A stretch of DNA of 64,000 bases from Candidatus Poribacteria bacterium (GTDB lineage Bacteria; Abyssobacteria; SURF-5): the NCBI GenBank assembly GCA_016215705.1, contig JACRIR010000074.1:1-64000 (forward strand), given 5' to 3'. This document shows positions 59,511 through 62,551 of this stretch, one piece after another. The notes under the pieces were generated by a model. It saw only the letters and a list, made by a program, of their open reading frames with translations, had not been told where the DNA came from and searched no databases. Position numbers and translations under genes: made by a program. Position 1 is the first letter of the stretch. Each line of letters begins with the position of its first letter.

Positions 59511-60236
59511 ATGGCCGCCAACAAAAGACTCGCAGATACATTATCCTTTCCCCTATCGATCTTCGCGCTTCTCCTCTCATGTGCCTTTGCCGCTGAACTG
59601 AAGGCGTCCTCTGAGGATGGGTCAGTCAGTCGGGGCAAGTCGATATTTGAGAAAGGATGTTCCTTTTGTCACACCATCGGTGAGGGACGCAAAGTAGGAG
59701 CCGACTTGAAAGATGTTACCAAAAGAAGGCCGAGAGAGTGGCTTATCAGCTTTATTTCTGACCCGGAGAGAATGTACAAAGAAGGAGACCCGGCAACAAA
59801 GAAGTTGGTGCAGCGGCATGGGGGCATAAGGATGTCGAGCGAAGGACTTTCGGGGCAGGAGGTATCCGATGTCCTTGCTTATCTGGAATCCAAGGGTGGG
59901 CCAAGTCGAACATCCGCTGAATGGGGCAAATCGACGTTTGAGCGGAAATGCTCCATTTGTCATACGATTGGCAGCGGGAACAAGATCGGACCGGACTTGA
60001 AAGAGGTTACCAAGAGAAGGCCGAGAGAGTGGCTTATCAGCTTCATCTCGGACCCGGAGAAGATGTTCAAAGAAGGAGACCTCACCGCCGTGAAATTGCG
60101 GGAGCAATACAGAGGCGCGAAGATGCCCACTCTCAAGCTCACGGAGCAAGAGTTGTCCAACATTCTCTCGTATTTGAAATTCAGAGATGCACAGAGCAAC
60201 CCGCCGGCAAAAGAGAAGAATGAGGCTGTCCCATAA
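59511..60236 (+). CDS. exported dihaem cytochrome c made of two tandem domains
   Basis: A 241-residue exported protein. The signal peptide ends near residue 28 (CAFAAE). Two class I-like cytochrome c domains follow, with haem motifs CSFCH (C50, C53, H54) and CSICH (C147, C150, H151) and likely axial methionines M108 and M205. The two halves are duplicates offset by exactly 97 residues, with near-identical KRRPREWLISFISDPE blocks. It probably carries electrons in the periplasm. GAGG lies 8 nt before the ATG. The gene stands alone between mobile-element fragments. Confidence 0.85.
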   Translation: MAANKRLADTLSFPLSIFALLLSCAFAAELKASSEDGSVSRGKSIFEKGCSFCHTIGEGRKVGADLKDVTKRRPREWLISFISDPERMYKEGDPATKKLVQRHGGIRMSSEGLSGQEVSDVLAYLESKGGPSRTSAEWGKSTFERKCSICHTIGSGNKIGPDLKEVTKRRPREWLISFISDPEKMFKEGDLTAVKLREQYRGAKMPTLKLTEQELSNILSYLKFRDAQSNPPAKEKNEAVP

Positions 60237-62110: not shown

Positions 62111-62551
62111 GTGAGTAAAGCCTGGAGATGGATGCCTGTCTTCTGCGCGTTGGTCATCTCAATCTTCGCGTTCGGATGCGCAACAAAAGCCCCGGAACCG
62201 GGATGGGAACAGGTAACGTTACTTCCCGAGGAAATTAGCGCTGTGCCGCGTGTGCCACCGGAAGAAGCATACCAGAAAGTGAAATCAGGCAAGGCGATCC
62301 TCGTATGTGCGTACACTGACGAGGACAGATGCTCGACGATGCATCTCGGGGGGGCAATCTTTCTGAAGGAGTTCGAGTCAAAGCTGCCAAGCTTATCGAA
62401 GAACCAGGAAATCATATTCTATTGCGCTTGACCGAACGAGAGAACGTCTGCCGGTCGGGCAGAGCAATATCTTGAAAAAGGATATACGAATGTGAAGGCG
62501 CTCGGTGGCGGTGTTGAGGCGTGGAAGAAGGCCGGGTATCCGCTGCAGTAA
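62111..62551 (+). CDS. selenocysteine-containing rhodanese-domain lipoprotein (TGA readthrough)
   Basis: A 146-residue lipoprotein if the in-frame TGA at 62429-62431 is read as selenocysteine. The signal ends in lipobox AFGC (Cys23). The rhodanese domain spans residues 45-146, with HLGGAI, the active-site loop IIFYCAUPNE (C105, U107) and the C-terminal VKALGGGVEAWKKAGYP that every rhodanese needs. Stopping at the TGA would remove the last third of the domain. Cysteine homologues typically have YCACP here. A hairpin with a GGTC loop begins 15 nt after the TGA. The start is GTG. Read through, the gene ends 31 bp from the convergent GMC gene. It may relay persulfide or redox equivalents in the envelope. 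Confidence 0.82.
62429..62463 (+). promoter_or_regulatory. UGA selenocysteine codon with bacterial SECIS-like hairpin
   Basis: After the TGA (62429-62431), TCTGCC (62447-62452) pairs perfectly with GGCAGA (62458-62463) around the loop GGTCG. The loop begins 22 nt after the TGA, and its GGTC matches the SelB-contacting loop of the E. coli fdhF element, both in sequence and in distance range. Confidence 0.75.

Follow-up and report, generated by a model that had tools for sequence, protein, structure and literature searches.

The single-domain rhodanese GlpE and the rhodanese domain of YgaP are without selenocysteine (Sec) and carry a canonical motif of the Asp-x-Arg type. A rhodanese with a Cys-x-Sec (CxU) pair at the active site is already a known kind of predicted selenoprotein, since it is listed both by the NCBIfam model NF041203 ('rhodanese_LYCAU', described as a 'rhodanese-related (seleno)protein') and by two reviews. 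One of these (2026) equates NF041203 with 'rhodanese-like form 3', CxU with one Sec, and cites a 2005 paper on bacterial SECIS elements (PMC13188914); the other (2022) lists the CxU rhodanese form as well (PMC9312934). Sec is also found in the rhodanese-related protein TsoB (NF045694), a rhodanese/DsbD fusion with the spacing UxxxxU.

The window (the whole stretch of 64,000 nucleotides analysed here) contains a gene whose product has the CxU active site YC-A-U-PNERTSAG. Its best NCBIfam model is NF041203, with 71.8 bits against a curated cut-off of 115. The protein shares the CxU pair and the single rhodanese domain with form 3, but differs in its sub-cut-off score, in a VCAY motif in place of Asp-x-Arg and in a lipoprotein-like N-terminus. 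The fold and the active-site Cys loop are common to GlpE, YgaP and the window protein. The match to TsoB is weak (19.6 bits, far under the cut-off of 805), and TsoB has its own Sec spacing and a DsbD-like fusion part. That the window gene is a new member of the listed CxU family, and not a new kind, is well supported; the preliminary description, which expected a lipid-anchored Cys-x-Sec rhodanese to be an unusual envelope catalyst, did not mention the listed family.

Gene, reading frame and domain

The GTG-started frame at 62111-62431 (forward strand) is preceded by a Shine-Dalgarno-like AGGG and ends, as had been reported, at a TGA immediately after ...EIIFYCA (Table 1). When this TGA is read as a residue, the frame runs on for exactly 39 further residues, PNERTSAGRAEQYLEKGYTNVKALGGGVEAWKKAGYPLQ, up to a TAA at 62549-62551. 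The claim that read-through completes the domain was borne out: residues 51-141 of the read-through protein match the Pfam Rhodanese profile (PF00581) from position 3 to its end (3-102 of 102; E 3.4e-9), and the score of 37.5 bits, for the whole domain, lies above the gathering cut-off of 22.2. The AlphaFold model has a pLDDT above 90 across most of the rhodanese domain, and its structural neighbours in the PDB are rhodaneses, including GlpE and YgaP. In the model the strand of residues 62-66 ends at Cys66 and that of residues 100-104 just before Cys105; from this fold the two cysteines are predicted to lie close together.

Table 1. Features of the Sec rhodanese gene in the window
Feature	Position	Strand	Remarks
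Predicted selenoprotein gene, rhodanese	62111..62551	+	146 residues, Sec at 107, GTG start, TAA stop; translation with TGA=U
Putative signal peptide, lipobox-like FAFG-C, then AT	62111..62185	+	Cys23 at 62177-62179; from sequence
VCAY motif (Val65-Tyr68)	62303..62314	+	replaces the usual rhodanese Asp-x-Arg; alignment A1 and wider set
Catalytic Cys105 (TGC)	62423..62425	+	within the rhodanese active-site loop; UxU relatives have TGA instead of Cys
TGA codon for Sec107	62429..62431	+	TGA in 19/19 clade rows of the tree
bSECIS hairpin UCUGCC - GGUCG - GGCAGA	62447..62463	+	covariation, pairing and recoding energy across relatives

The lipobox of the window protein (A-F-G-C) is loose and off the strict consensus. 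Better lipobox-like N-termini are found at L005 (LFLAAC), L007 (LALTAC), L009 (LALAAC), L059 (FISAC), L017 (VIAGC) and L083 (LAAAC), and the members of the clade that holds the window protein (see below) are mixed, some with a lipoprotein-like N-terminus and others starting directly at the domain. Judged by the lipobox-like motif, the window protein is probably anchored in the envelope through a lipid on Cys23.

Conservation of the TGA codon in relatives

Relatives were gathered via protein similarity, a criterion that gives no preference to a stop codon at the Sec column. A second rhodanese paralogue of the window genome, on contig 56, has a TGA at the same codon. The phylum was sampled by the window genome and two other genomes, both of the same family; these three yielded five rhodanese matches, each with one TGA. 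The protein of L056, a locus in one of the other two genomes, shows no difference in the aligned domain from its counterpart in Candidatus Abyssobacteria SURF_17 (L004), so that this little-known group is the most likely origin of the window. The TGA also occurs in relatives from the Thermodesulfobacteriota, the Acidobacteriota and other groups, and searches in the classes around genomes G139 and G074 added little to the set. In the nearer relatives the Sec column, which the preliminary description had proposed to align, holds either Sec (TGA) or Cys; Cys occurs in a few homologues, e.g. L075 and the copy that accompanies L062. None of the refuting outcomes named there, among them homologues that end naturally at this position, was observed; one relative, L016, would end there, but solely through a loss of sequence. 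At this locus (L016:3001-3283) some 35 nt covering the tail of the TGA and the hairpin are absent and the frame is shifted, through either decay or an assembly error.

The hairpin behind the TGA

The 6-bp hairpin with a GGUC loop that had been noted 22 nt downstream is present as described: 62447-62452 pair with 62458-62463 around the loop GGUCG, the first G of which lies 22 nt past the UGA. For 62423-62480 the structure of lowest energy is not this hairpin but a longer helix that takes in the UGA, whereas the fold from 62429 on, with the UGA entering the ribosome, consists of this hairpin and a lower stem (-15.7 kcal/mol), so that the folding check proposed earlier gave the expected structure from 62429 on. 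On the window sequence by itself the hairpin is not significant: when the peptide was recoded synonymously 20000 times, 1007 of the variants (5%) had an equally stable hairpin, and comparative data were therefore used instead.

Alignment A3 comprises 32 distinct related sites over 48 gap-free nucleotides from the UGA. Its sites were chosen by their TGA, which is thus no evidence within this alignment; the hairpin is. The 6-bp stem was paired in 89.6% of the cells, versus 29.7-52.6% when the partner was slid. The covariation score was 0.335 against a shuffled mean of 0.143, and was reached in none of 500 shuffles. The pair of columns 21-33 is U-A in 19 sites, C-G in 11, G-C in one and U-G in one (31 of 32 Watson-Crick); it is hardly constrained by the protein, since both of its bases are third codon positions, one in a Ser/Ala codon and the other in an Ala codon. 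Over all rows the mean hairpin energy was -7.7, compared to -1.1 (sd 0.4) after synonymous recoding. Although the relatedness of the sequences inflates these statistics, the effect is so large, and the sliding control so clear, that the conservation is unlikely to have arisen by chance. With a G in the apical loop, a downstream position and maintenance by covariation, the element has the properties of a bSECIS hairpin. At L014, which falls outside the A3 register, the hairpin appears by eye to be shifted by about one base. The earlier presentation of the window hairpin as an independent SECIS signal holds by comparison over 32 sites, but not for the window sequence taken alone.

Selenocysteine machinery

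The window genome (5.47 Mb in 270 contigs, 92% complete) contains all four of selA, selB, selC and selD, the genes that the preliminary description had suggested looking for. The first two are found together on contig 228, where selB scores 371 bits against a cut-off of 242, and the tRNA-Sec lies on contig 59 (68 bits; cut-off 47). The selD gene (contig 134:6943-7869) has one TGA in frame, from which SelD is probably a selenoprotein itself.

Readings of the TGA

Recoding is supported by a UGA in frame with conserved sequence on both sides. The standard code would end the frame at the TGA, and if the codon were a true stop we would be looking at a nonsense-mutated or truncated rhodanese pseudogene with a relic frame downstream; L016, with the loss of about 35 nt over the TGA tail and the hairpin, would indeed end there. 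Such a relic is hard to reconcile with the recurrence of the TGA at this codon in different phyla, with a peptide behind it that is conserved just as the preceding one is, and with compensatory synonymous changes that keep the hairpin. We consider this reading very improbable, and it was rejected because of the conservation past the TGA and the covariation of the hairpin. Even more remote is a genome-wide assignment of TGA to Trp or another residue, for which no support was found. It would leave the conserved hairpin without a role beside a complete Sec machinery, the alternative residue at the column is Cys and not Trp in the nearer Cys homologues, and in L004, a relative from the Abyssobacteria, the stop codon of the gene copy is itself a TGA; this reading too was rejected. 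The domain, the TGA in the relatives, the covariation of the hairpin and the Sec genes all agree with the selenocysteine reading proposed in the preliminary description, and we are highly confident that the TGA of the window gene encodes selenocysteine and that the predicted product is a complete rhodanese.

Placement in the family and UxU relatives

Seven further Sec members were scanned against NF041203 and only L063 passes its cut-off (118 bits), while all 14 members of alignment A1 match the model at E <= 0.001. The tree, which has 44 rows, places the window protein in a clade of 19 rows (support 99/96), all of which are CxU or UxU. VCAY or VCGY occupies the Asp-x-Arg site in every row of this clade except L062, which is likewise the only one in which Cys66 is not kept. 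The sister groups have a canonical sequence of the Asp-x-Arg type. In other parts of the family, at L064, L068 and L071, the CxU domain appears, by eye, to be fused behind a DedA-like membrane region.

Six loci have a TGA both at the catalytic Cys and at the position two residues further: L062, L066, L073, L074, L088 and the second copy of L012 (L012:4043-4339). The hairpin is present behind the TGA at all six. Five of them are included in the tree, where UxU involves three label changes that are forced by well-supported branches. The genomes of the UxU loci have a tRNA-Sec above the cut-off; selB was above the cut-off in G344, G033 and G018 (in the last as a partial match, positions 1-347) and was not found above it in G074 or in the genome of L012. 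The UxU copy of L012 may be decaying, as it has Asn in place of an otherwise conserved Tyr. A rhodanese combined with UxU was not found in the literature searched, a limited collection that does not prove it to be undescribed. A separate clade of lipid-anchored redox enzymes with Cys66, Cys105 and Sec107, together with repeated UxU diselenide rhodaneses in the wider family, is a picture that we put forward tentatively, with slightly less than even confidence.

Proposed function and gene neighbourhood

The comparisons support a gene in which SelB with Sec-tRNA reads the UGA at 62429 as selenocysteine, guided by the hairpin 22 nt downstream. According to the catalytic mechanism that we propose, Cys105 would accept sulfane sulfur (or become oxidised), and the selenolate of Sec107 could resolve the resulting persulfide or sulfenate to a selenenylsulfide, which a cellular thiol/disulfide reductase would reduce. 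Cys66, at the usual site of Asp-x-Arg, may be a third redox thiol. We lean slightly towards such a redox catalyst, resembling a persulfide/polysulfide (or peroxide) reductase, over a plain sulfurtransferase.

It is somewhat less probable, yet a serious alternative, that this genuine selenoprotein is an ordinary sulfurtransferase in which Sec107 only tunes the active-site loop and takes no part in redox catalysis; the rhodanese fold and the active-site Cys are, after all, intact. What speaks for redox catalysis instead is that a CxU pair is akin to the thiol/selenol sites of redox proteins, that some relatives have Sec at the catalytic Cys too, and that Asp-x-Arg is lost in the window clade.

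At L005 and L007 the Sec rhodanese gene is immediately followed by a gene for a pyridine nucleotide-disulphide oxidoreductase (L005:3530-5338 and L007:3433-5037); the L005 oxidoreductase also matches a STAS domain. This arrangement fits a redox role, and the oxidoreductase is a possible reductase partner of the Sec rhodanese. Apart from this gene no constant neighbour was seen across the loci inspected. Among the neighbours in the window no partner gene was seen: upstream lies an ORF of 211 aa without a Pfam match, and downstream, in opposite orientation, a GMC-type oxidoreductase. Further upstream of the rhodanese gene, at 59511-60236, the window encodes a protein with two tandem cytochrome c domains.

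Implications

Sec rhodanese genes of the window type are truncated, and then lost, by standard gene calling, and the under-annotated clade to which they belong sits below the cut-off of NF041203. Through the synonymous covariation of the hairpin, the comparison of relatives strongly supports recoding in a phylum that has been little studied. If the redox reading is true, it would tie selenium to the handling of persulfide or polysulfide in the envelope of uncultured anaerobes.
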